Virus record (IMG/VR): IMGVR_UViG_3300009425_000068
Coordinates: 1-28,551 of that record
Direction: 5' to 3' (one strand)
DNA: 28,551 nucleotides
Origin: a virus
Position 1 is the first letter of the stretch; each line of letters opens with the position of its first letter. The notes beneath the pieces were generated by a model, which ran no database searches, was not told where the DNA came from, and worked only from the letters and a program-made list of their open reading frames with translations. This document shows positions 1,302 to 20,265 of this stretch, piece by piece. Both the position numbers and the translations under genes were made by a program.

Positions 1302-2395
1302 TGAATTATTTAACACTAACTAATCAGGTATTAGCAGAATTAAATGAAGTGCAACTAACTAGTAGTAACTTTGTTAGTGGTGCTGTAGGTATTCAACAGA
1401 CTACAAAAGATGTAGTTAATAAAGCACTTAGAGATGTATACTCTTCAGAGCTAGAATGGCCTTGGTTACATAGTGATAAGATACAAGCAACTTTTGCAGG
1501 ACAAAAAGAATATGCACTACCTACTGATTATAGATCAGTTGACTATGATTCATTCTACATAGTTCCTACAGAGTTAGTAACAAATTCAACTTTTGATAGT
1601 AACATAACTAATTGGACAACTTCATCTGGAACTCCAGCATATACAGCTACAGGAAATGGTAGACTAAGATTAAATGCAGCAGCAGCTTATGCTACTCTAT
1701 CAACAGTAAAGAATAAAGAATACAGATTACAAGTTAGATTAATAGATAGTTCTTCTAGCGGATCTAGTTTAAAAATACAAGTAGGCACTTCTCCTGCAGG
1801 CACACAAAATTTAAGTACTACTTTAACAATAGCTGATTTTGGTGATGGCTCAATTCTAGATATTAAATTTACAGCAACTGCATCTACTTCATACTTAACT
1901 TTAGATAATGATGACTCCAATAATTTAGATGTAGATTTTGTAAAGGTATCAGAAAATATTGCACCTAAAAAATTAACATACATTACATATGATGATTATA
2001 GAAGAAGATTTTTAAGTACTGCACAGATAAATAGTAGTGATCAGTACGGAGTTCCTGATTATATATACAAATCACAAGACGGAAAGTTTGGATTGTATCG
2101 TATACCAGATTCAGATGGGTATAGCATAAACTACGAATATTGGAAAACTCATGATGATTTATCGGCTACAACCGATACTCCAGATATACCTGCCAGATTT
2201 CATGATGTAGTAATAGCAAGAACTAAGTACTATATATATCAACTACGATCTGATCCTCAGTTTACTCAATTTGCTGCAGCAGACTATCAGGCAGGAATAA
2301 AAAGAATGAGAATAGAATTAATTAATTCTCCAACACAAATGTTAGATACTCGTGTAAACATTACTAAAACTAGAGGAGCTGCAATAGGTGGCTGA
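1301..2395 (+). CDS. Tail tubular protein A-like adaptor (T7 gp11 type) with inserted beta-sandwich domain
   Basis: The protein is 364 residues long. Residues 1-90 and about 219-340 look like the helical adaptor that joins the portal to the tail in T7-like phages: an N-terminal helix pair with 'NKALRDVYSSELEWPWL', the 'YALPTDYRSVDY' turn, then 'LTYITYDDYRRRFL', 'GLYRIPDSDGYSINYEYWK' and 'PARFHDVVIARTKYYIYQ'. T7 gp11 is about 196 residues. The excess is a block at about 91-218 that starts with 'LVTNSTFDSNITNWT', a typical opening of CBM4/9-like carbohydrate-binding beta-sandwiches. The gene overlaps its upstream neighbour by one base and its downstream neighbour by eight, so the three are likely coupled. 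The adaptor call is from family knowledge; the sugar-binding role of the insert is inference. Confidence 0.75.
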   Translation: MNYLTLTNQVLAELNEVQLTSSNFVSGAVGIQQTTKDVVNKALRDVYSSELEWPWLHSDKIQATFAGQKEYALPTDYRSVDYDSFYIVPTELVTNSTFDSNITNWTTSSGTPAYTATGNGRLRLNAAAAYATLSTVKNKEYRLQVRLIDSSSSGSSLKIQVGTSPAGTQNLSTTLTIADFGDGSILDIKFTATASTSYLTLDNDDSNNLDVDFVKVSENIAPKKLTYITYDDYRRRFLSTAQINSSDQYGVPDYIYKSQDGKFGLYRIPDSDGYSINYEYWKTHDDLSATTDTPDIPARFHDVVIARTKYYIYQLRSDPQFTQFAAADYQAGIKRMRIELINSPTQMLDTRVNITKTRGAAIGG

Positions 2396-3929
2396 TACTT
2401 CACAAATATCTCCCTTTATATATGGGTGCTCTGGAGGTTTAGTATTAAACAAAGATACTTTTTCTTTTCAACCAGGAGAGTCTAGAATATTACAAAACTT
2501 TGAGCCAGACATTAAGGGCGGATATAAAAAAATATTAGGTACTTCATTTTATAATACTAATATTGTTCCTCAAGTATCTAATGCTAATGAACGCGTAGTA
2601 ATGTCTGCTATATTTAATGATAGGGTATTAGTAGCAAGAGGTGGAACTATATATCAAGGAGATGCGGGCAGTGGTAGTTGGACATCTGTACAAGCTAGTT
2701 TAGGAACTCCTACTGCTAACTATACATTTAGTAAATTTAATTTTACTGGGACAGACAATATAGTAGTAGCAACGGGAACTTCATTTCCTAAGATAATAGA
2801 TACTTCTTATAATGTAATTAATGTTAATGCGTCAGGAAGTCAAGATACTTTTAGTATTGTTGAAGTGTTTAAAAATCATATCTTTTTTGCAGGCGCTACA
2901 GGATCTACACAAGAAATTAAATTTATGGGTCCTTTTCAAACTAATGATTTTACTACTGGTAATGGTGGTGGTGCTATTAAAGTAGATACTACAATTATAG
3001 GAATGAAAGTATTTAGGGGTAGCCTATTTATATTTGGGCTAGACAAAATATTTAAGTTAACTGGAACTTCATTAAGTGATTTTTCTATAACTCCAGTAAC
3101 AAGAACTATTGGTTGCTTAGATCGTGGATCAATTCAAGAGCTTGGTGGTGATATTGTATTTCTTGCACCAGATGGAATTAGAACTATTGCAGGTACAGAA
3201 AGAATTGACGATGTCGAATTAGGTACTGTGTCTAAACAAATACAAGAACGTATTGATGAGGTTGGAGTAGATAATATAAGTTCTTTAGTAATAAGAAAAA
3301 AATCTCAATACAGAATGTTTTACCCTAAAACAAGTGGAGCAGAAGTAGCTTCTAGAGCAGTAATATCTGTTGTAAAAACTAATAGTAATACTGGACAATT
3401 AGGTTATGAATATGCAGATATGTTAGGAGTTAAGCCGTCTTGTTGTGATTCTGATTTTGTAGGATCTACTGAAACTGCAGTACATGGTGGCTATGATGGT
3501 TACATATATCTGCAGGAATCAGGTAATGTATTTACTAGAGTAGGCGGTACAGCAAACATAGAAAGTATTTATAAGTCTCCCGATTTAGCAATGGGAGATC
3601 CAGGCATACGCAAGAGTATGCAAAGAGTTATTGTAAACTATACTAATGAAGGGTTAGTAGATGCTGATCTTACATTAAGATATGATTATGATTCGGCAAC
3701 AACGCCACAACCAAGTACTTATCCTTTAAATACAGGAAACGTACCAGCAATTTACGGAACAGGAACATACAACAATTCTACCTATAATCAATCAAGTCTA
3801 CCTTTAGTAAGACAAGATGTACAAGGATCAGGATTTGCAGTAGCTATTAAAGTTATTGATAGTAGTGCCTTTCCACCAATAAGTTTAAAAGGTTTTGAAC
3901 TAGAATTTACCCCAGGAGGCAGAAGATAA
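2388..3929 (+). CDS. Tail tubular protein B / tail nozzle-like protein
   Basis: This 513-residue protein begins with GTG at 2388, set by AGAGGAG about 9 bases upstream; no ATG fits in this frame. The body shows repeated short beta-strands separated by turns, as in the beta-propeller of podoviral nozzle proteins (P22 gp10 and T7 gp12 type). Examples are 'ILQNFEPDIKGGYKKILGT' near the N-terminus, 'VFKNHIFFAGA', 'VFRGSLFIFGLDKIFKLTGT' and 'LGGDIVFLAPDGIRTIAGT'. The first of these, about residue 33 onward, resembles the start of many marine phage tail proteins. Its place directly after the gp11-like adaptor and before the fibre supports the nozzle role at the lower end of the tail. It has no membrane segment. 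Confidence 0.72.
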   Translation: MADTSQISPFIYGCSGGLVLNKDTFSFQPGESRILQNFEPDIKGGYKKILGTSFYNTNIVPQVSNANERVVMSAIFNDRVLVARGGTIYQGDAGSGSWTSVQASLGTPTANYTFSKFNFTGTDNIVVATGTSFPKIIDTSYNVINVNASGSQDTFSIVEVFKNHIFFAGATGSTQEIKFMGPFQTNDFTTGNGGGAIKVDTTIIGMKVFRGSLFIFGLDKIFKLTGTSLSDFSITPVTRTIGCLDRGSIQELGGDIVFLAPDGIRTIAGTERIDDVELGTVSKQIQERIDEVGVDNISSLVIRKKSQYRMFYPKTSGAEVASRAVISVVKTNSNTGQLGYEYADMLGVKPSCCDSDFVGSTETAVHGGYDGYIYLQESGNVFTRVGGTANIESIYKSPDLAMGDPGIRKSMQRVIVNYTNEGLVDADLTLRYDYDSATTPQPSTYPLNTGNVPAIYGTGTYNNSTYNQSSLPLVRQDVQGSGFAVAIKVIDSSAFPPISLKGFELEFTPGGRR

Positions 3930-3930
3930 C

Positions 3931-6900
3931 ATGGCAGGCTACTCAGCTCGACAGAGCTCATATTCAAGTGGAGATACTATTAACGCTGCACATAGTAATG
4001 ATGAATTTAATACTATATTAGCAGCATTTAATGTATCAACAGGACACACACATGACGGCAGTAGTGCTGGTGATGGTGGCCCTATATCTAATCTATTTAG
4101 TAATGCACTAGTATTTGGTACTAATGCAAATACAGATATAGCAATTACATTTAATGCTACTAGTAATGATGGTGTATTAACATGGATGGAAGACGAAGAT
4201 TACTTCCAGTTCTCTGATGATATATTATTAGCAACTACAGAAAAATTACAGTTTAGAGACACTGCTGTATATATTAACTCATCTGCAGATGGTCAACTAG
4301 ACTTAGTGGCAGATACAGAAATACAAATAGCAGCTACTACAGTAGATATTAATGGTGCAGTAGATATATCTGGCAACTTAGGAGTTGGTGGTAATCTAAC
4401 AGTAACAGGTACTACGACTTTTAACGGTGGTACACTTACTTTAGGAAACTCAGCAGGTGACAATGTTGTATTTGGTGCTGACGTAGACTCTAGTATTATA
4501 CCTGATGATGATGATACTTATGACCTTGGTAGTTCTTCACAAGAATGGAGAAACTTATTTATTGATGGTACAGCTAATATAGATAGCCTTGTAGCTGATA
4601 CAGCAGATATTAATGGTGGTACTATTGACGGTGCAGTTATTGGTGGTGCAAGTGCAGCTGCCATAACAGGTACAGCAATTACTGGTACTAGTTTTGTTAT
4701 AGGTTCCGCAGACATTGGAGAAGCAGAACTAGAAATATTAGATGGTGCTACGCTTTCAACTGATGAGATTAATCTCCTTGATGGCGTTACAGCTACAACT
4801 GCAGAGTTAAATATTTTAGATGGTGTTACAGCAAGTGCAACAGATATTAATCTTATTGATGGAATAACCAACGGAACAGTAATAGCAAGTAAGGCTATTA
4901 TAACAGATTTAAACAAAGACATAACTGGTGGTAGAAATATTACTATTAGTGGAGAACTTGATGCGGCTACTTTAGATATATCAGGTAATGTTGATATTAA
5001 CGGAACTACAAACTTAGATGTTGTTGATATAGATGGTGCTGTTGACATGGCTACAACTCTTACTGTAGCAGGTAACGTAGACTTTAATGGTGATTTAGAT
5101 GTAGATGGAACATTAGAAACAGATGCCCTTACTATTGCTGGCGTAACTCTAGCAGAAACAATTAGTGATACTGTAGGAGCTATGGTAACAAGCAATACTG
5201 AATCAGGTATTACAGTAGCTTATCAAGATGCAGATAATACATTAGACTTTACAATCGGTACACTTAACCAAGATACAAGTGGTACAGCAGCAATAGCCAC
5301 AACAGTTACTATTACAGACAACGAAAACACAAACGAAAACAACGCAATTATCTTTACATCTGGTGGAGACTTAGATGGTGGTAACTTAGGTTTAGAATCA
5401 GATGGTGATTTAAAATACAATCCAAGCACAGGAACATTAAGTGTACCTAACGTATCAGTAAGTGGTACATTTAGTACGGTTAATAGTGTTACTATGGATG
5501 CTAACAATGCTGTAATCTTTGAAGGATCAACGGCTGATGCTCACGAAACAACCTTAACATCTATTGATGCTACAGATGATAGAACAATATCTCTACCTAA
5601 CGTATCAGGTACAATTCCTGTATTAGCTGTAGCAAGTAATACACAAATTACTTCTACACCTGAAGAGTTAAATGCCTTAGACGGTATTACTGCAGTAGTC
5701 GGAGAGCTTAATGCTCTTGACATAGGCTCTACAGCTGTTGGTACAGCAGTAGCTTCTAAAGCAGTTATATTAGATTCTAACAAAGATTATACAGGCATAA
5801 GAAACTTAACAATTACTGGTGAGCTAGATGCAGCTACACTAGACATTTCAGGTGCAATAGACGTAGCTGGAACATCAAACTTAGACATAGTGGATATAGA
5901 CGGTGCTGTTGATATGGCTTCTACCCTTCAAGTTGATGGTGTAGCTACTTTTACTGGCAGAGATATTCATAGTGGTGGCATTACTATTGCCAATGCAGGA
6001 CAAATTGGCTCAGTTGGAGATACTGATGCAATCGCAATCGCAAGTGATGGAGTTGTTACTCTCACACAAAAATTAGTAGGTACTGAATTAGACATCTCAG
6101 GCAACATAGACGTAAACGGAACATCAAACCTAGACGTAGTAGATATAGACGGAGCTGTAGATATGGCAACTACACTTACACTTGCTGGTAATGCAGACTT
6201 TAATGGTGATTTAGATGTTGACGGTACTACTAACCTTGATGTCGTAGACATTGATGGTGCGGTAGACATGGCTACTACACTAGCAGTAACAGGTATTGCT
6301 ACTTTTACAGATGATATAATTATAGGTGATGGCAAAACTATTGGTTCTGCTTCAGATGTTGATGCAATAACAATCGCTGCAAACGGACAACTAACACTTA
6401 CACAAACATTAATAGGTACAGCATTAGACATATCTGGTGATGCTGACATTGATGGTACACTAGAAGCTGACGCTATAACAGTTGATGGTACTGCACTAGC
6501 TACAGTTATTGCAGGAACAACAGTCACTAACACAACAAACTCTGCTCACGTTCTAGTAACTGACAATGAAAGCACAAATGAAGAAAATCTTATTGCTTTT
6601 GTAGAAGGTGCAACATCAAGTACAGGTAATGTTGGACTAGAAATGGATGGCAATTTTGCGTATAACCCAAGTACAGGTACAGTTTCAGCTACTATATTTA
6701 AAGGCAATATTGATGCAGTTGATGGAGACTTTGATGGTACTCTTGAGGCTGATGCGATAACTATAGGGGGTACAGCTATTGGTTCTATTTATAGTGTTAT
6801 AGCAGGTAGCTCTAGTATTGTAACAACTGGTGCTTTAAATAGTGGATCTATTACTTCTGGTTTTGGAACCATTAATAATGGGGCATCTGCTATTACAACT

Positions 6901-8748
6901 ACTGGTACAGTTAATTTTGGTAGCCTAGCTGACGGAACCATAACAGTTACAGCATTTGTAGACGAAGATGATATGAGTACAAATTCAGCTACATTAGTAC
7001 CTACCCAGCAGTCTGTAAAGGCTTATGTAGACGCAAATGCTGGTGGGGGTTTATCGTTAATTGATGAAGATAATATGGCTAGTGATTCTGCTGGTAGACC
7101 ACCAAGTCAACAGTCTGTAAAGGCTTTTGTGACTGGATTAACAGGGGGTAACATTGTTGCAACTGGAGCATTAAATTCAGGCTCAGTTACATCAGGATTT
7201 GGAAACATAGATACAGGATCATCTACAATTACAACAACAGGTTTAATTAGTGGTGGTTCTTTAGATATTGATAATGTTTTAATTAATGGCACAACAATAG
7301 GACATACAGATGATACCGATTTAATAACTGTAGCAGATGGTTTAGTAACTGTTGCTGGTGAAATATCAGTAACTACATTAGATATTGGAGGTACTAATGT
7401 ATCTTCAACTGCAGCAGAATTAAATATCCTTGATGGAGTAACTTCAACGGCAGCAGAACTAAACATCTTAGATGGTGTTACTTCTACAGCCGCAGAACTT
7501 AATATACTCGATGGAGTAACTTCAACTGCAGCAGAATTAAATGCTTTAGATGGCATTACCGCAGTTGTAGGTGAGCTAAATGCTCTTGATATAGGATCTA
7601 CGGCTGTAGGAACTGCTGTAGCTTCTAAGGCTGTTATACTAGATTCAAATAAAGATTATACTGGAATTAGAAATTTAACTGTATCTGGTGAACTTGATGC
7701 AGCTACTGGTGATTTTAGTGGTAACGTAGATATAGATGGTACATTAGAAGCTGATGCCATTACTGTAAACGGTACAGCATTGGCTGAAGTTATTTCTGAT
7801 ACTGTTGGAGCTATGGTAAGTTCTAACACTGAGTCAGGAATTACAGTAGCCTATCAAGATGCAGACAATACTCTAGACTTTACAGTTGGAACTCTTAACC
7901 AAAACACTACAGGTTCGGCAGCTACTTTAACAACAGCAAGAACTATTGGTGGCGTAAGTTTTAATGGTAGTGCAAATATTAATTTACCAGGTGTAAATGC
8001 AGCAGGTAACCAAAATACTTCAGGTTCAGCAGCTACTTTAACAAATGCTAGAACAATTGGTGGTGTTTCGTTTAACGGTTCTGCTAATATTAACTTACCT
8101 GGCGTAAATGCAGCAGGTAACCAAAATACTTCAGGTACTGCAGCTACAGTAACTACTGCAGCTCAATCAAACATTACATCATTAGGCACACTAACAACTT
8201 TAACAGTTGATGATATAACTATAAATGGTAGTACAATATCAGATGGTGGTGATCTTACACTTGATGTAGATGGAGATATTATATTAGATGCTAATGGTGG
8301 TGACATATTTTTTAAAGACAATGGTACTACATTTGGTAGTGCAACTAATACTTCAGGAAATTTAATAATTAAATCAGGCACAACTACTGCCGCCACTTTT
8401 AGTGGAGCTAATGTAACACTTGCAGGTACTGTAGGATCGGGTGCAATAACTAGTTCTGGAAACATCACAGCCTTTAGTGACCAACGATTAAAATCAGACA
8501 TCAAAACAATAGATAATGCCTTAGACAAAGTGTCTAAAATGAGAGGTGTTATGTTTATTAAAGATGGAGAACTATCTAGTGGTGTTATAGCACAAGAGAT
8601 GGAACAAGTTGCTCCTGAATTAGTTATGGATGGAGAATATAAATCAGTAGCTTATGGCAATATAGTTGGTTATCTTATTGAATCAATTAAAGAATTAAAA
8701 GCTGAAGTCACAAACTTAAAATGCAGAAAAGAATGTGAGTGTAACTAA
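3931..8748 (+). CDS. Giant repetitive tail fibre with C-terminal S74 intramolecular chaperone
   Basis: This 1605-residue protein is the receptor-binding fibre or a long side fibre. The N-terminal ~150 residues (with 'GHTHDGSS' and 'WMEDEDYFQFSDD') form the likely tail-attachment head. The shaft is built of short beta-repeats such as LDISGNVDINGTTNLDVVDIDG, tandem STAAELNILDGVT units (nt 7405-7560) and two 37-residue GGVSFNGSANINLPGVN units (nt 7900-8121). The C-terminus carries a peptidase S74 chaperone: Ser1516-Asp-Gln-Arg-Leu-Lys1521 and GVIAQEMEQVAPELV. In this family the domain trimerises the shaft, then cuts itself off in front of the serine, here releasing about 90 residues. The last eight residues are Cys-rich (CRKECECN). 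The stop overlaps the next start by one base. Fibre and S74 calls are secure; the ligand is unknown. Confidence 0.9.
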   Translation: MAGYSARQSSYSSGDTINAAHSNDEFNTILAAFNVSTGHTHDGSSAGDGGPISNLFSNALVFGTNANTDIAITFNATSNDGVLTWMEDEDYFQFSDDILLATTEKLQFRDTAVYINSSADGQLDLVADTEIQIAATTVDINGAVDISGNLGVGGNLTVTGTTTFNGGTLTLGNSAGDNVVFGADVDSSIIPDDDDTYDLGSSSQEWRNLFIDGTANIDSLVADTADINGGTIDGAVIGGASAAAITGTAITGTSFVIGSADIGEAELEILDGATLSTDEINLLDGVTATTAELNILDGVTASATDINLIDGITNGTVIASKAIITDLNKDITGGRNITISGELDAATLDISGNVDINGTTNLDVVDIDGAVDMATTLTVAGNVDFNGDLDVDGTLETDALTIAGVTLAETISDTVGAMVTSNTESGITVAYQDADNTLDFTIGTLNQDTSGTAAIATTVTITDNENTNENNAIIFTSGGDLDGGNLGLESDGDLKYNPSTGTLSVPNVSVSGTFSTVNSVTMDANNAVIFEGSTADAHETTLTSIDATDDRTISLPNVSGTIPVLAVASNTQITSTPEELNALDGITAVVGELNALDIGSTAVGTAVASKAVILDSNKDYTGIRNLTITGELDAATLDISGAIDVAGTSNLDIVDIDGAVDMASTLQVDGVATFTGRDIHSGGITIANAGQIGSVGDTDAIAIASDGVVTLTQKLVGTELDISGNIDVNGTSNLDVVDIDGAVDMATTLTLAGNADFNGDLDVDGTTNLDVVDIDGAVDMATTLAVTGIATFTDDIIIGDGKTIGSASDVDAITIAANGQLTLTQTLIGTALDISGDADIDGTLEADAITVDGTALATVIAGTTVTNTTNSAHVLVTDNESTNEENLIAFVEGATSSTGNVGLEMDGNFAYNPSTGTVSATIFKGNIDAVDGDFDGTLEADAITIGGTAIGSIYSVIAGSSSIVTTGALNSGSITSGFGTINNGASAITTTGTVNFGSLADGTITVTAFVDEDDMSTNSATLVPTQQSVKAYVDANAGGGLSLIDEDNMASDSAGRPPSQQSVKAFVTGLTGGNIVATGALNSGSVTSGFGNIDTGSSTITTTGLISGGSLDIDNVLINGTTIGHTDDTDLITVADGLVTVAGEISVTTLDIGGTNVSSTAAELNILDGVTSTAAELNILDGVTSTAAELNILDGVTSTAAELNALDGITAVVGELNALDIGSTAVGTAVASKAVILDSNKDYTGIRNLTVSGELDAATGDFSGNVDIDGTLEADAITVNGTALAEVISDTVGAMVSSNTESGITVAYQDADNTLDFTVGTLNQNTTGSAATLTTARTIGGVSFNGSANINLPGVNAAGNQNTSGSAATLTNARTIGGVSFNGSANINLPGVNAAGNQNTSGTAATVTTAAQSNITSLGTLTTLTVDDITINGSTISDGGDLTLDVDGDIILDANGGDIFFKDNGTTFGSATNTSGNLIIKSGTTTAATFSGANVTLAGTVGSGAITSSGNITAFSDQRLKSDIKTIDNALDKVSKMRGVMFIKDGELSSGVIAQEMEQVAPELVMDGEYKSVAYGNIVGYLIESIKELKAEVTNLKCRKECECN
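5665..5811 (+). repeat. First copy of a 49-codon dispersed fibre repeat
   Basis: These 49 codons encode the segment from ELNALDGITAVVGELNALD to YTGIRNLT. The same 49 residues recur at 7534-7680. The two copies differ at 26 of 49 codons, and all the differences are synonymous. Confidence 0.95.
7405..7560 (+). repeat. Four tandem 39-base repeats (STAAELNILDGVT)
   Basis: Four head-to-tail 13-residue units lie at 7405, 7444, 7483 and 7522. The first three are identical in protein; the fourth has two changes (I to A, V to I). Codons differ between units at many positions, for example leucine as TTA, CTA or CTT at the same place. Related single units occur upstream around 4690-4860. Confidence 0.95.
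7534..7680 (+). repeat. Second copy of the 49-codon dispersed fibre repeat
   Basis: This copy is identical in protein sequence to 5665-5811 but strongly different in DNA (26 synonymous codon changes). It starts inside the fourth unit of the 39-base tandem repeat. Confidence 0.95.
7900..8121 (+). repeat. Two tandem 111-base repeats in the fibre shaft
   Basis: There are two 37-codon units, at 7900-8010 and 8011-8121, plus the start of a third at 8122 (QNTSGTAAT). The units share 35 of 37 residues yet differ synonymously at 13 codons, including serine swaps between AGT and TCG or TCT. The GGVSFNGSANINLPGVN core is common in phage fibre shafts. Confidence 0.93.
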
Positions 8749-9263: not shown

Positions 9264-10445
9264 ATGAATATACTTTTTATAGAATACGACTCTCAACACT
9301 TTCATCAACAAGTTAAATTAGTTGATGGCGGACATAATGTATGGTCTACTTGGAGTAATAAAGAATACCATACAAAATTTGGAATACAGAATTGTGACAG
9401 TGGTAATTGGACAACGTGGACAGAAAGTAGTTATCAGTCTTTGACCAATAAAATTACTAGTTTAAGTATCGATACAGTTATTTTAGGTATACCTTGGTTA
9501 CATTGGTTGCGTGGGGTAATGCCCGAAGGAGTAACCTTTTTAGCCGCTACAGAAGATGCATTTAAACTAGAGACTGATAAATTTGCAACTAGGACTGCAG
9601 TTGGTAACTTAGGTTTAAATGTATTAGATGTTGTAGGACAAGGAAAAACAGATGCTTTTGATTTATCTGGGTATTCAGTAAGGCCTGTTATAGTTAAGCC
9701 TAAAAATAGTTTTGTAGGTACTTATGTTATTTATGAAAATCAAGACGCAGCAGCTATTGCACACTTTGACAATTTTACTGAATCACAACATTATGATTAT
9801 TATTTAGAAAAATTTTTACCAAACATGAAATTAGAGGCAGAGGTACATTTTATTATTGCTAATGATAAATGGGCTATTTACTATACTGGAGAAATGCAAA
9901 ACGAAATAGATCGTAGAACATTTATTAAAAATAAAGCTACCTCTCCTTGGATAAATGATGTAGTCCTTAAAAAACTTTCTTCAGATATTAACACAAAAGT
10001 ATTAGCAGCAGCCAAAACTTTTTTAGATTGGGCTGTTACAAAAGGTGGTAACTATTGTGGCTCAATAAATTTTGGAGTTGATAATAGTGATGAACTTTAT
10101 TGGATTGAATGTAATGCTAGAAAAGATGCTTATAGTTGTTTGCCGTGTAATATATCTGGAAGTGATTATCTTGCGGCACTAACTACAGATCCTGATAAAT
10201 ATGTAACCGATATAAGCCAATGGACATTTACTACAGTAGCATCCACAATAGATAATTCTCCTATTCAGGAGTATCCATTTAACTTACATGCTGAATATGA
10301 AGTTGATCCACCAAACTGTTTGCTTAAACAGGAAGATAAATACAGGACTAATCATGGTGGAATAGTTATATATTCTCAAGGAGATCTTCCTACAGAATTT
10401 GTTACTAAATTAACTGCAGATGGAAAATATAAAATTGTATCGTAA
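9264..10445 (+). CDS. ATP-grasp family ligase
   Basis: This 393-residue cytoplasmic protein has the motifs of an ATP-grasp carboxylate-amine ligase. After an N-terminal domain of ~90 residues come 'ATEDAFKLETDKFATR' (Lys106, a candidate ATP-binding lysine), 'NLGLNV', 'RPVIVKPKNSFVGTYV' (Lys145 and a loop over the phosphates), 'YLEKFLP' (Glu182), 'AEVHF' and 'GSINFGV...LYWIECNARKDA', where Glu282 and Asn284 would hold the magnesium. The order resembles the glycinamide ribonucleotide synthetase core, but the N-terminal domain is different, so it is not PurD. ATP-grasp enzymes join a carboxylate to an amine or thiol through an acyl phosphate. The substrate is unknown. No Shine-Dalgarno is visible in the 12-base gap before the ATG. 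It lies between fibre genes and a SET-domain gene; modification of a virion protein or of the host surface is inference. Confidence 0.78.
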   Translation: MNILFIEYDSQHFHQQVKLVDGGHNVWSTWSNKEYHTKFGIQNCDSGNWTTWTESSYQSLTNKITSLSIDTVILGIPWLHWLRGVMPEGVTFLAATEDAFKLETDKFATRTAVGNLGLNVLDVVGQGKTDAFDLSGYSVRPVIVKPKNSFVGTYVIYENQDAAAIAHFDNFTESQHYDYYLEKFLPNMKLEAEVHFIIANDKWAIYYTGEMQNEIDRRTFIKNKATSPWINDVVLKKLSSDINTKVLAAAKTFLDWAVTKGGNYCGSINFGVDNSDELYWIECNARKDAYSCLPCNISGSDYLAALTTDPDKYVTDISQWTFTTVASTIDNSPIQEYPFNLHAEYEVDPPNCLLKQEDKYRTNHGGIVIYSQGDLPTEFVTKLTADGKYKIVS

Positions 10446-10454
10446 TTAATAAAA

Positions 10455-10925
10455 ATGTTTTATTATAAGGTAGAGAATAGAAAATCACCAATACAAGGAG
10501 AGGGTCTATACACATTAGATGATATTAAAAAGGGCAGTATTATTTTTTATTGGGGATCAGATCAAGATAGGATCATTAATGAAGCTACCTATTTAAAAAA
10601 ACGAAAAGATGTGTCTGATAATATATTTCAAAAAACATCTGGTAGATGGGTACACAATAAATTTTTACACTGCAAAGAATGGGGCCTTGATTGCTATATG
10701 AATCATTCTTACAGCCCTAATATACTATACTATTGTGGTATTGGCTTTGCAAAAAAAGACATTAAAAAAAATGAAGAGCTATTTATAAATTTTCAATACC
10801 TTTTATCAGATAAAGACTCTGCATGTTTTACAGATATAGAAACTAATAGGCAAGTTATAGGGTTAGATAATGACGAATGCTTAAAAGAATCATCTAAAGA
10901 ATTAATCTTATTACTTAATAAATAA
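10455..10925 (+). CDS. SET-domain protein methyltransferase
   Basis: This 156-residue protein has the hallmarks of a SET lysine methyltransferase. SPIQGEGLYTLDDIKKG (11-27) corresponds to the GxG strand that opens the domain, YMNHSYSPN (81-89) is the NHSxxPN SAM-binding and knot motif, and GFAKKDIKKNEELFINFQY (97-115) is the closing segment with an aromatic end. SET enzymes move a methyl group from S-adenosylmethionine to a protein lysine. It has no pre-SET cysteines, like the minimal viral and bacterial forms. It follows the ATP-grasp gene after nine bases, without a clear ribosome binding site, and the DNA is very AT-rich (many AAA and ATA codons). It could methylate a phage structural protein or a host protein; the target is not visible. 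Confidence 0.8.
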   Translation: MFYYKVENRKSPIQGEGLYTLDDIKKGSIIFYWGSDQDRIINEATYLKKRKDVSDNIFQKTSGRWVHNKFLHCKEWGLDCYMNHSYSPNILYYCGIGFAKKDIKKNEELFINFQYLLSDKDSACFTDIETNRQVIGLDNDECLKESSKELILLLNK

Positions 10926-15144: not shown

Positions 15145-18100
15145 ATGGGAACACTTTCATTTGCACCTATAGAACCAGAAGATACTTCTACGGATATAAA
15201 CTCTAACGCAAAGTTAAAGTTTTCACCAATAGAAAATAAAAACCTTGATATAAATAAACTTAATCTATTTCAAGATAGTGTCTTTGATATGCAAGAAAAA
15301 CTAGAATTAGATAAAACTCCTTATGTAAGTGAAGAAGAATATGAAAAAGCTAATAAGGGAGTACAGTTAGGTACGGCTGCAAAATACGGATTTAATTCTT
15401 CTGTACAGGGAGCAGTATACCATGCATCTGCAGTACCAGGATGGACCGATAGAGCTGCCGATTACATGATAGATTTTTTTGGAGGTGACGCAGATAAGTG
15501 GACAACCAATTATCTATACGGAGATGAGCTTACTAATCAAGCTGGCATAACTAACAATGAAGATTTTATTAATTTACAAAAAAAAATTAAAGAGAAGGAT
15601 GAATTTAAAGCAAGTCTAGATAATAACTTTTTTAAAAAGGTAACGTTTAATACCCTAGCATCTATAGATGCAACTGAAGAACATTTAAAAAGTTATGCAC
15701 AGAGAGTTCAGCCATTTACTGTAGATCCTTTATTTCAACCTGATGGTATTGCAGAAAAAGTTGCAATGGGTTTTGGTGGTATGCCTATTCAAATAGCTGA
15801 AGTAGGAGCACTTACTCTTGCAGCTGCTGGAGGTATAGCTTTAGCTACAGGAACAGCAATTGGTGGTGCTCCTATTGCTGCTGCAGGTATTGGATTTGGA
15901 ACTCTAGGATTTTTGGCATCATATGAAGAAGAAGCTGGAGCCGTTTTATATAATACTATTATAAGTGCAGGTGAGGGTATGGCATTTGGAGGCCTATCTA
16001 AATTACCTGGATGGAAAAGTAGGACTGTTGCAATGGGAGGGCTTGGAGCCGCATCTGCTAGATTGCACGGTGGTGGATCTGAAGAGATGATAGCAGGTGC
16101 AATTAATCTAGCCTCTCTAGGATTTGCTGGAAGAGGATTTGATAAACTTACAGGTAAAAATGTATTTGGCACACAGCCTAAAGAGCCAACCCCTAAACCT
16201 CCTGAGTATACATTTTTAAAAGCTAAAGATGTTTTACAACATGATATTAGAAAATTAGATGCAAGTACAAAACCATTAAGAGACTACATAAAAGAAGATG
16301 GTAAGGGATATCATGTAGAAGCTCAAGCTATACCTTTTGAGATATCAAAAGAAAGTTCTATAAGTTTACTTAAAGAATCTAAATCTAAAAAAGACTTTGA
16401 ATTAAAGTTAGGTAATGTAGAAAAATTAGAATTAACTGCAAACACAAGAAGAGATATAGAATCTGGAAGAGATACAGTTAGATTTAAAAAAATAACAAAA
16501 GAAACAAAACCAGAAGAACTTGCATTAAATGAAAAAACAATTAAAAAAGATGTAGAGATAGATAAACAATTTGTAATTAAAGATGGAAAATTAATAGATT
16601 ATACATATCATTTAGACGCTGCAACTTTAACCATAAAGCCAAAAGGATTTACTGAAACATTTAAAGATACTGGAATAAACAGAACTCAGTATAATCAAAA
16701 GGATGCTATACTGGATAGGTATAACAACTCTAAAATAATTAATGGTAAGTTAAAATCTATTGATGCTAATACAATAGAGATATCTTTTAAACAACTTATG
16801 TCTATATACAGACAAAAAGGTGCAGAGCATAAATGGGCAAAGCCTGCTTTTAAAGAAGCTAGTGCAATAAAGAAACAAGAAGAAACAAGTATGCTTAATA
16901 GGTTTACTAAGTATGTTGAAGAGGCTGATATAAATAGGTCTCATATGGATAGGCTTTTAAATATTACAACAAGAGTAGATCCTCATCCTGGTGAAAGCAA
17001 AATACCAAATGCTAATGAGTTATTATATGCTATAACTGAAATGGTTAAAGACCCTAAGACTGGTAAAAATACATTTAAAATAAAAAAAGATAAAAAAACT
17101 GGACAGGATAAAGAGGTAGACTTAAACAAGTCCGAAGCAGGAACAGGAGCTAATGAAATAAAAGGCCTATTAGAAAGACAGTTAATTCCTATTAAACTAA
17201 CAGGTGATGCATCAAAAAATAATATTAAACTATTTGTTTCTACAAAAGTAAAACAAATGAAAGGTGCGGTTGATGCTGGTATAAATGATATACTATACAG
17301 ACAAAGATCAGTACTAGATCAGCCTATTAATAAATTTCAATTTATAGAAGAGAAAAAAGGATTCCTTCAAGAAAAAGTTTTTTTTAATTTTACAAATGCA
17401 ATAGGGCAAACAAAAACATATAGATCTAAAGAAGGCGCCTTAACTGAATTTGAAAATTTAACTGTAAAAGAAGCATACAATATTCCTGGAAAAATGAAAG
17501 GGGTTAACTCTCAGAAAAAAATTATAGATGCTATGATAAACAGAGAAATTGTCATGGAAAAAAAAGCAGCTAGTGCTGCAAAAAATAAAACTCCTAAAGA
17601 AATAAAAGCAGAGTATCTTAAAAAAGACAATAAGGATAACTTTGTCTATAGAATGTCGTATGAGACTTTACAAAAAAATTATAAACTAACTCCCGAAGAA
17701 ACTAGAATTGTTAGAAAACTAGATGAGGGTTTAACTAATGCTAGAATACTATATAATAAAGAAATGCAGTTAAATCCTGCTGCTGGAAAATTAATTGATG
17801 AGCTTCCAAACTACTATCCTCATGCTTGGATAGGAAACTATAGGGTATATATTAAAGATCCTATAACTAATGATTTAGTAGGATCTATTGTTGGATCAAG
17901 TAGAGCTGATGTGTTAAAACAATACCAAACGTTTAAACAAAAAAATCCTAAATATGATAAGTACCCTTATGAGTATGTTCCACAAAGTCAAAGTACTGGT
18001 AAAGGTAAAGAAAATTTATATGAGGCATTCTATGAAGCAACCAGAATAATGGATTTAAAAGATCCACAGTTAGGCACTGCACTAAAAGAAGCATATAGAG

Positions 18101-20265
18101 ATTACATTAGTAGAGATTCTTTTTCTAGAGTTAAAAAAGAAAGAAGAGGAGTAGTAGGTAATATAGCTGGAACAAGAGAAGGTCGTCAAGGAATTGGAGA
18201 TTTTTTAGAAATGTATACAGGATATATTTCTGGAGCAGTAAGGGCAAAAGAAGCTGGAAAATTTCAAAGAGAAACTGCGGCACTATTTGATAGGACAGAC
18301 CCAAGAGCGGATTTATTAATGAGAAAATTTCCTCAACAATATAAAATTTCTAAAGATTATATTGATATGTATTTTGGTAGAAATGATAGTATGGTAGCTA
18401 AAAGTGTTGATAGTTTTATTAAAACAGTAGGAACTTTACCTATATTTAATAAGAGTCCTTTTTCATTTAGACAATTTAGCTCTACAATTAATACAGTAAC
18501 ACTGCATAAAGCATTACTATTTGGAAACCCACGTTATCTAGCATCAGCAATACTTCAACCATATCAAATGGTACCACAAAGATTGGCGTGGTTAAAACAA
18601 GAGTATGGAATAAAAGGAGATGTAAGTGTTGCACTAGCAGAAGGTACTATGCTTGCATGGAAACCTACAAAAGAATTTAAAGCTCTTGTTACTGAATCTT
18701 TGAAACCAGAAAATGCTGTTTTAGATACTGCGTTTTTAAAAGAATTTTCAACAGAAGTATTTAAAGGTAAGTCTAGACAGAATCCATATTTTAAACCATT
18801 ACAAGATTTTGTTGTAAATGTAACTACTGGAAAATCATTGGCAGGTATGGCAGAAAGACATAGTAGATTACAATCATTAGGTATAATATACAAATTTTTA
18901 AAGACTGCAAACTATGATAAAAATAGATCACAAAAAGATTTTTTTGATACTGTTATGTTTGAAACTCAAAATTTAATGGTTGAATACAATGCTCTAAACA
19001 GAGCACAATTATACACAGGAAAAGGTGGAGGATCTGCAGCATCTGCTTTTGGATTATTTAAAACATTTTTTCATAACTACTTAGGACAAATGACTCAGTA
19101 TGCTAGGACTTGGGCAAAAAGTGAAAAAGAAATACAGTCATTAAAAAAATTAGAAGAGCTAACAGGAATACCTTTACCTTCAAAAAAATTAGGAAAATTA
19201 ACAGATCTTCAAGCGGCAAGGCCTGCACTATTTCATGTAACTGCAGGCATAATGACTGCTGGTTTATTTGGAGCAATAGGAGTTGCACAAGCTGATGCAC
19301 TTATAATGGTAATGAATAAAATATTCTATGATACTGGCCTTAAAGAAGAAAGAATACCTACATTAACAGAGACTATTTTAAAATCTAATTTGCCTAACGC
19401 TATAAAATTTGGTATTCCTTCTGATGCAGTTGGTGTAGACATATCATCTACTATGGCAGCTCCAGGATTAGGACCTGGAGATATATTTAGTTTGCCAGCT
19501 TTAGATTATCTTTTTGGTTTTACTTCTAAAACAAATCCTGGAGTTATTAATTCTTCTATAGCAATAGCAAGAAAGAAAAAAAATGGAACCTATACTCCTG
19601 CAGATTTTTATTCTTTTTTAAAAGCTAGTTTACCTCCTACTTTAATGGCAGAAGTTGAAAGACATTATGCAGGACTTCCTAGATATAAATTAGCCGAAGG
19701 AACTTTTTTTGATAGATTTATTCCAGACCCATCAGGAAATGCAAAAGATACTCTTACAGATGAAGACAGTATATACTATAAAAGTGTTATTGGGTTTGGT
19801 AAAGATAGTAATAAAAAGAAATGGATAGTTGCAAATCCTTATAAAGGAATGCGAGGATCTATTGAAAGAGATGTTGCAGGGTTTAAAGCAAGATACTTTG
19901 CAGGTAAAAGTTTCGAAGAGGCACTATTATTAAAAACTATTTGGGAAACTACTAAGATTAGTAGACGTCACAAAGATAAAAAAGATCAATTAGTTACAAG
20001 TATAGCTTATATATTAGCTAATGGATATGACGAAGAAATTATGCCTCTTATAGATGTAGCAAAAGATATGGGCTACACATATGAAGAGATTATGTCAAAG
20101 GTATTTACTCGTATGGAGTTTATGAACAACACAGTTTTGTCTAGAACTAAAGGATTAGCAAAACAATATAACTATGAACAAAGAGAATTTATACTTGAAG
20201 TATTAGAAAATAATTCAATTGACTTACAGTATATGCCAGAACAATTAAGGGGATTTGGAAAGTAA
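15145..20265 (+). CDS. Giant internal virion / DNA-ejection protein (gp16-like)
   Basis: This 1706-residue protein is the largest gene here and closes the run of internal proteins. Residues ~200-290 are a long Gly/Ala-rich hydrophobic region able to enter membranes, and ~1357-1399 is a second hydrophobic segment. Between them are long charged helical regions. A 'LPNYYPHAWIG' motif near residue 890 recalls large multi-domain virion proteins of other phages. In T7, the equivalent gp16 (1318 residues) is ejected into the host and lines the channel for DNA. I see no clear lysozyme-type transglycosylase motif at the N-terminus, so the wall-cutting part of gp16 may be absent. No good ribosome binding site precedes the ATG, four bases after the previous stop. 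The stop overlaps the amidase start. Confidence 0.65.
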   Translation: MGTLSFAPIEPEDTSTDINSNAKLKFSPIENKNLDINKLNLFQDSVFDMQEKLELDKTPYVSEEEYEKANKGVQLGTAAKYGFNSSVQGAVYHASAVPGWTDRAADYMIDFFGGDADKWTTNYLYGDELTNQAGITNNEDFINLQKKIKEKDEFKASLDNNFFKKVTFNTLASIDATEEHLKSYAQRVQPFTVDPLFQPDGIAEKVAMGFGGMPIQIAEVGALTLAAAGGIALATGTAIGGAPIAAAGIGFGTLGFLASYEEEAGAVLYNTIISAGEGMAFGGLSKLPGWKSRTVAMGGLGAASARLHGGGSEEMIAGAINLASLGFAGRGFDKLTGKNVFGTQPKEPTPKPPEYTFLKAKDVLQHDIRKLDASTKPLRDYIKEDGKGYHVEAQAIPFEISKESSISLLKESKSKKDFELKLGNVEKLELTANTRRDIESGRDTVRFKKITKETKPEELALNEKTIKKDVEIDKQFVIKDGKLIDYTYHLDAATLTIKPKGFTETFKDTGINRTQYNQKDAILDRYNNSKIINGKLKSIDANTIEISFKQLMSIYRQKGAEHKWAKPAFKEASAIKKQEETSMLNRFTKYVEEADINRSHMDRLLNITTRVDPHPGESKIPNANELLYAITEMVKDPKTGKNTFKIKKDKKTGQDKEVDLNKSEAGTGANEIKGLLERQLIPIKLTGDASKNNIKLFVSTKVKQMKGAVDAGINDILYRQRSVLDQPINKFQFIEEKKGFLQEKVFFNFTNAIGQTKTYRSKEGALTEFENLTVKEAYNIPGKMKGVNSQKKIIDAMINREIVMEKKAASAAKNKTPKEIKAEYLKKDNKDNFVYRMSYETLQKNYKLTPEETRIVRKLDEGLTNARILYNKEMQLNPAAGKLIDELPNYYPHAWIGNYRVYIKDPITNDLVGSIVGSSRADVLKQYQTFKQKNPKYDKYPYEYVPQSQSTGKGKENLYEAFYEATRIMDLKDPQLGTALKEAYRDYISRDSFSRVKKERRGVVGNIAGTREGRQGIGDFLEMYTGYISGAVRAKEAGKFQRETAALFDRTDPRADLLMRKFPQQYKISKDYIDMYFGRNDSMVAKSVDSFIKTVGTLPIFNKSPFSFRQFSSTINTVTLHKALLFGNPRYLASAILQPYQMVPQRLAWLKQEYGIKGDVSVALAEGTMLAWKPTKEFKALVTESLKPENAVLDTAFLKEFSTEVFKGKSRQNPYFKPLQDFVVNVTTGKSLAGMAERHSRLQSLGIIYKFLKTANYDKNRSQKDFFDTVMFETQNLMVEYNALNRAQLYTGKGGGSAASAFGLFKTFFHNYLGQMTQYARTWAKSEKEIQSLKKLEELTGIPLPSKKLGKLTDLQAARPALFHVTAGIMTAGLFGAIGVAQADALIMVMNKIFYDTGLKEERIPTLTETILKSNLPNAIKFGIPSDAVGVDISSTMAAPGLGPGDIFSLPALDYLFGFTSKTNPGVINSSIAIARKKKNGTYTPADFYSFLKASLPPTLMAEVERHYAGLPRYKLAEGTFFDRFIPDPSGNAKDTLTDEDSIYYKSVIGFGKDSNKKKWIVANPYKGMRGSIERDVAGFKARYFAGKSFEEALLLKTIWETTKISRRHKDKKDQLVTSIAYILANGYDEEIMPLIDVAKDMGYTYEEIMSKVFTRMEFMNNTVLSRTKGLAKQYNYEQREFILEVLENNSIDLQYMPEQLRGFGK

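Follow-up and report, generated by a model that had tools for sequence, protein, structure and literature searches.

Protein-identical, codon-divergent repeats in a marine phage tail-fibre gene are probably draws from a brick pool exchanged between distant phages

The tail-fibre gene of an uncultivated virus (IMG/VR record IMGVR_UViG_3300009425_000068, whose 28,551 nucleotides are here called the window) contains two in-frame copies of a 49-residue brick, which are most probably (about 0.83) two draws from a long-lived pool of bricks exchanged between distant phages and not sequences whose codon spelling was selected apart. Silent sites were found to be saturated without excess, exact repeats in the gene are in excess, the closest relatives of the two copies reside in different distant phages and distances within the gene are about those between phages. 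The phenomenon is the known mosaicism of tail fibres, seen at a fine scale. The features concerned are the following, in window coordinates.

2388 to 3929, plus strand: P0002, a virion structural gene upstream of the fibre (phrog_5107, phrog_3287), used as the single-copy yardstick.
3931 to 8748, plus strand: tail-fibre gene with repeated bricks and a C-terminal endosialidase-type chaperone domain (1605-residue ORF; PHROG tail-fibre families; Peptidase_S74, E 3.6e-12).
4910 to 5025, plus strand: 116-nt patch of one brick in which 6 of the 14 positions fall where the near-identical contig L081 differs, three silent ones within 7 nt matching the in-gene paralogue.
5291 to 5939, plus strand: segment around copy 1 with 87.5% DNA identity to the distant phage L179, of which 139 nt starting at 5631 are exact.
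5665 to 5811, plus strand: 49-residue brick, copy 1; nearest outside copies in L179 (6/49 codons differ) and L043 (7/49).
7399 to 7554, plus strand: four tandem 13-residue units of the ELNILDG type, silent sites near saturation.
7521 to 7743, plus strand: segment around copy 2 with 88% DNA identity to L041, the flanks being unlike on both sides.
7534 to 7680, plus strand: 49-residue brick, copy 2; nearest outside copy L041:5704 (7/49 codons differ).
7896 to 8117, plus strand: tandem pair of 111 nt whose divergence stays below saturation, with a 33-nt exact run at 7993/8104.
8476 to 8625, plus strand: Peptidase_S74 (chaperone of endosialidase) domain, E 3.6e-12.

The C-terminal Peptidase_S74 domain scores 46.8 bits against a cut-off of 22, placing the ORF among the S74-bearing fibres. 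Its best cultured relative is the fibre of Pelagibacter phage HTVC033P (MZ892993), with 49% identity over 37% of the length, and the adaptor proteins are 46% identical. When the shaft was compared by sequence with the PDB, no match was obtained at E 0.01, and a profile match of the shaft or brick to clumping factor A (E 0.083) was weak and taken as chance. A monomer AlphaFold model of the brick built from 25 sequences attained a mean pLDDT of only 65, a confidence too low for use. In the same window, searches of Pfam and PHROG gave nothing above the thresholds applied for an ORF at 15145-20265 (1706 residues). A SET-domain protein at 10455-10925 (Pfam PF00856, E 2.1e-10) adjoins the tail-fibre genes, as does the ORF just upstream of it at 9264-10445, whose ATP-grasp-like match (PF02786, E 0.0014) is below threshold. 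The minus-strand ORF at 25787-26185 matches the S-adenosylmethionine decarboxylase family (phrog_3125, E 6.7e-17).

It had been noticed from the sequence that the two 49-residue copies share their protein but not their codons, and this was indeed confirmed: the proteins agree at each of the 49 residues and 26 of the codons are spelled differently without any effect on the amino acid, both copies being in frame in the ORF at 3931-8748. Each differing codon is changed at one nucleotide, 25 at the third position and one at the first position of a leucine codon, leaving a DNA identity of 82.3%. The alignment can be lengthened to 58 residues, of which 56 agree, with 29 codons differing, and contig L081 carries the same arrangement of two copies. 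While the protein similarity is far above chance, the count of silent differences is what chance gives at saturation. Two independent draws from the codon usage of the gene should on average disagree at 25.7 codons out of 49 (sd 3.4), and draws from the position-specific codon usage of 97 distinct block DNAs at 25.6 (sd 3.4), as compared to the 26 observed (dS 1.86, dN 0). Thus, 26 silent differences in 49 codons are plain saturation. Nor did the expectation of unusually short identical runs hold, since the longest run between the copies is 11 nt against a simulated median of 14 and 22% of the simulations gave runs as short (P 0.22). The pair is moreover an extreme chosen among many within-gene block pairs, whose amino-acid differences range from 0 to 8 (31 pairs in 25 loci, the window and L081 both counted). 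A column of the block occupied almost invariably by serine (column 21, counted from 0, of 49) is spelled with AGY codons in 56 of 97 sequences and with TCN codons in 37, which are two steps apart.

The claim that other repeat sets of the gene behave likewise was sustained on average but not for every set: 20 overlapping segments pooled give 249 silent differences against 251.4 expected, whereas the 111-nt tandem pair 7897/8008 falls below expectation, with 14 silent differences against 23.6 (z -2.97). Among adjacent 13-residue units, counted with L081 and L082 left out, silent differences are slightly fewer than expected (1318 against 1408.5, z -3.7; 261 distinct pairs from 64 loci), and when counted per locus the outcome is even, 33 of 64 lying above expectation. 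Codon-identical neighbours are found in only 2 of the 261 pairs. Such scarcity, together with tandem units near saturation, is what would be seen if new, DNA-identical duplicates were quickly deleted and only old, silently diverged repeats remained, with no selection beyond saturation. However, less diverged repeats do persist, such as 7897/8008 and a block pair in L058 that differs at 11 of 48 codons, and short-read assembly alone removes identical units, which makes a filter of this kind a rather unlikely source of the pattern.

The saturation seen in the pair is that of the whole pool. At least 548 IMG/VR stretches contain the block, and the best 80 of them were kept, a choice that exaggerates protein constraint; copies with fewer than 25 of 49 matches were dropped and none fell between 25 and 41. 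Across 160 loci examined, 118 block copies were found in 90 loci, and two-copy genes are present, apart from those of the window and L081, in 23 loci. The median silent fraction is 0.50 for pairs within a gene (31 pairs, 25 loci) and 0.53 for pairs between contigs (4,629 pairs). When blocks of different populations were paired (4,482 pairs), 544 pairs (12%) proved identical in amino acids, with a median of 27 silent differences. The window pair is thus ordinary for bricks taken from two phages, and its zero amino-acid differences are a favourable draw of the kind met in that 12%. Most comparators are short metagenome contigs, in which chimeric assembly and the collapse of exact repeats are possible. 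Despite the abundance of the block in uncultivated virus stretches, a search of 50,697 phage records returned only four S-CAM7 records, matching at 56% over 41 residues, no cultured phage record exceeding that identity, and the fibre of HTVC033P, unlike the window's, is without a match to the block. A scan of GTDB genomes gave nine loci, eight in MAG records and one in the assembly of an uncultured SAR116 isolate, the best at 85% in a Maricaulis MAG; these loci may or may not be phage DNA and no host was drawn from them.

Block pairs with pS between 0.40 and 0.55 have a mean pN of 0.049. Single-copy comparisons at like pS gave pN 0.082 for P0002 (against L103), 0.106 for the adaptor (L083) and 0.12 for the fibre N-terminus (L083). 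The block is hence perhaps about twofold more constrained than these comparators, a figure that is overstated because blocks were kept for high identity. A trimeric shaft would offer a structural ground for such constraint. A comparison of dN/dS with single-copy genes, which the original prediction had proposed, thus bears out stronger protein constraint on the block but not an exceptional silent divergence: the value of 0.53 for the pair lies within the 0.31-0.59 found for 141 P0002 relatives, in the range of single-copy orthologues of distant relatives, and thereby approaches the first of the two outcomes that the original prediction had named as refuting it. The further proposal, that the copies are old and held by protein selection, stands for the brick pool, in which silent sites are saturated with the amino acids held.

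The nearest relatives of the two copies, listed with the near-identical L081 left out, lie in different phages. In L043:6885 the brick of copy 1 recurs with 7 of its 49 codons changed, and L041:5704 stands equally close to copy 2 (dS 0.21, dN 0 in both cases), the chance probability of seven or fewer differences after 116 comparisons being 3e-5 and 1.6e-8, respectively. A scan by DNA pattern added L179, which is 6 codons from copy 1, one V/I change included, and 26 codons from copy 2, and whose fibre ORF holds a single block only; the same scan with the copy 2 pattern matched solely the near-identical contig. L179 departs abruptly from the window downstream of the shared segment, and its proteins are otherwise distant (33% identity for the P0002 homologue and 28% for the adaptor). 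The P0002 homologue of L043 is likewise 33% identical, L041 has none within the contig stretch examined, and the exact runs that P0002 has in common with L179, L043 or L041 are at most 17 nt long. The L041 match is confined to 7521-7743, both flanks being different. Along the fibre, the best-matching contig switches repeatedly in a mosaic painting from which only L081 was left out, the near-identical L082 that stayed in ending at window position 3665, before the fibre. A highly similar fragment in otherwise dissimilar phages marks mosaic receptor-binding proteins, and such a fragment is seen here in the 139-nt exact run shared with L179 next to a protein of 33% identity.

A recent duplication of the pair within the gene was rejected, as the copies are not closest to each other in DNA (dS 1.86 against 0.21 to outside copies). 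Each copy is in fact closer to an outside copy in a distantly related phage than to its partner, which comes close to the separate origin from two phages that the original prediction named as evidence against itself. When one locus per population was taken (n=17), the copies were not both closer to outside copies in 2 of 17 pairs (L031, L058), so that in-gene duplication or conversion also occurs. In only 5 of the 17 pairs were both copies within a silent fraction of 0.30 of outside copies, a chance minimum near 0.36 being expected with about 100 comparators, as estimated from mean and sd. An ancient duplication in this gene lineage, followed by independent silent decay under strong protein selection and later export of each copy, could account for saturated silent sites at dN 0 and for the number of two-copy genes in other loci. 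However, the same later exchanges would still be required, copy 1 is present without copy 2 in L179, the close match of L041 to copy 2 sits in other flanks, and pool-wide distances account for the pair without any special duplication, so that this history is unlikely.

Changes in unit number and recent patches of exchange are also visible. Upstream of copy 1, L043 carries a 117-nt insertion of exactly three 13-residue units (L043:6750-6884 against window 5647-5664), and beyond it the flank matches the window again and is hence not foreign; 13-residue units have therefore been gained or lost. Over the 11,926 positions at which the window can be aligned with L081 there are 14 mismatches, of which seven lie in the fibre. 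Three silent ones within 7 nt (cluster P 3.5e-4) carry the letters of the in-gene paralogue at 6131-6149, which are found in other phages as well. This cluster looks like a conversion or exchange tract, although mis-assembly at a repeat may also produce it.

Selection on the silent sites themselves was addressed by shuffling synonymous codons within each gene, as a way of running the test that had been proposed at the outset. In 500 shuffles, the window fibre gene was found to contain 29 exact 18-mer repeats against 8.6 in the null and a longest exact repeat of 33 nt against 22.3 nt, while three other window genes showed no exact-repeat excess at P 0.05. Among 40 block-bearing fibre genes of uncultivated phages, one per population from 40 of 43 populations (ORFs shorter than 400 codons or with ambiguous codons being dropped), the 12-mer count is above its null mean in 78% and the longest repeat in 75%; the remaining 22-25% are not above it, and some lie below. 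Nine cultured phages supplied ten fibre genes, of which 10 of 10 surpass the null mean for 12-mers and 9 of 10 do so for the longest repeat, although individual significance is not reached in every case. As short-read assembly is expected to lose long exact repeats, the excess is a conservative one. Neither silent divergence above nor exact runs below the synonymous-shuffle null, the marks of anti-recombination codon diversification, were found. The idea that silent divergence was favoured because it prevents recombination from deleting the shaft is thus very improbable, for although divergence lowers phage recombination, which nevertheless tolerates it (De Paepe et al., PMC3945230, in the part drawn on here), and although the longest run of the pair is short and codon-identical neighbours are rare, silent differences show no surplus over random expectation and are slightly too few between adjacent units, this fibre gene and most of those compared carry a surplus of exact repeats, gain or loss of units and exchange of patches are observed, and the bricks do appear to recombine.

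Under the preferred reading, that of a shared brick pool, a long shaft would be assembled from bricks, some 13 to 80 residues long, that are re-used within a gene and common to many, mostly uncultivated marine phages. Purifying selection would hold the brick protein near fixed, with silent sites long saturated pool-wide, and brick-carrying segments would pass between distantly related phages, so that the two copies would behave as unrelated draws from the pool; two such draws give about 26 silent differences in 49 codons without an amino-acid change. When phages are compared, the DNA of many bricks is about 75-85% identical, and phage recombination at such partial identity would permit the exchange, a step that here rests on sequence comparison, while selection would retain in-frame functional shafts.

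Fragments common to unrelated phages and ongoing shuffling are described for phage tail fibres in the portions of Smug et al. (2023, PMC10684548) used here. The present case resembles that domain mosaicism in being built of fragments shared between unrelated phages, and is unlike it, as far as those portions extend, in that the unit is smaller, re-used inside one gene and dated by saturated silent sites. Divergence-tolerant phage recombination, including that of lambda side-tail-fibre genes, is established in the sections of De Paepe et al. (2014, PMC3945230) referred to; exchange between partly identical segments is common to both cases, whereas here it is inferred from sequence. In Alteromonas phages (PMC10579305), according to the excerpt used, host-recognition genes are likewise common to distant phages, as a whole module in contrast to the sub-gene bricks seen here. 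In searches on silent divergence in repeats and on the motif ELNILDG, in which some papers were judged by their listing alone, no paper on this pattern was found.

A striking pattern thus becomes an ordinary prediction, namely silent-site saturation in a shared pool, and a simple set of tests (expected codon differences, synonymous shuffles and the nearest outside copy) can tell exchange apart from silent divergence that was selected. The case also shows that among uncultivated marine phages fibre modules are transferred in pieces of tens of codons. More tentatively, and at less than even odds, much of the fibre repertoire of many uncultivated marine phages might stem from one shared pool of small bricks that hardly vary as proteins, with in-gene repeats serving as ports for inserting, losing and swapping bricks and 13-residue units between phages that are otherwise barely alike. 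If this is true, the length and order of fibres would evolve faster than their sequence.
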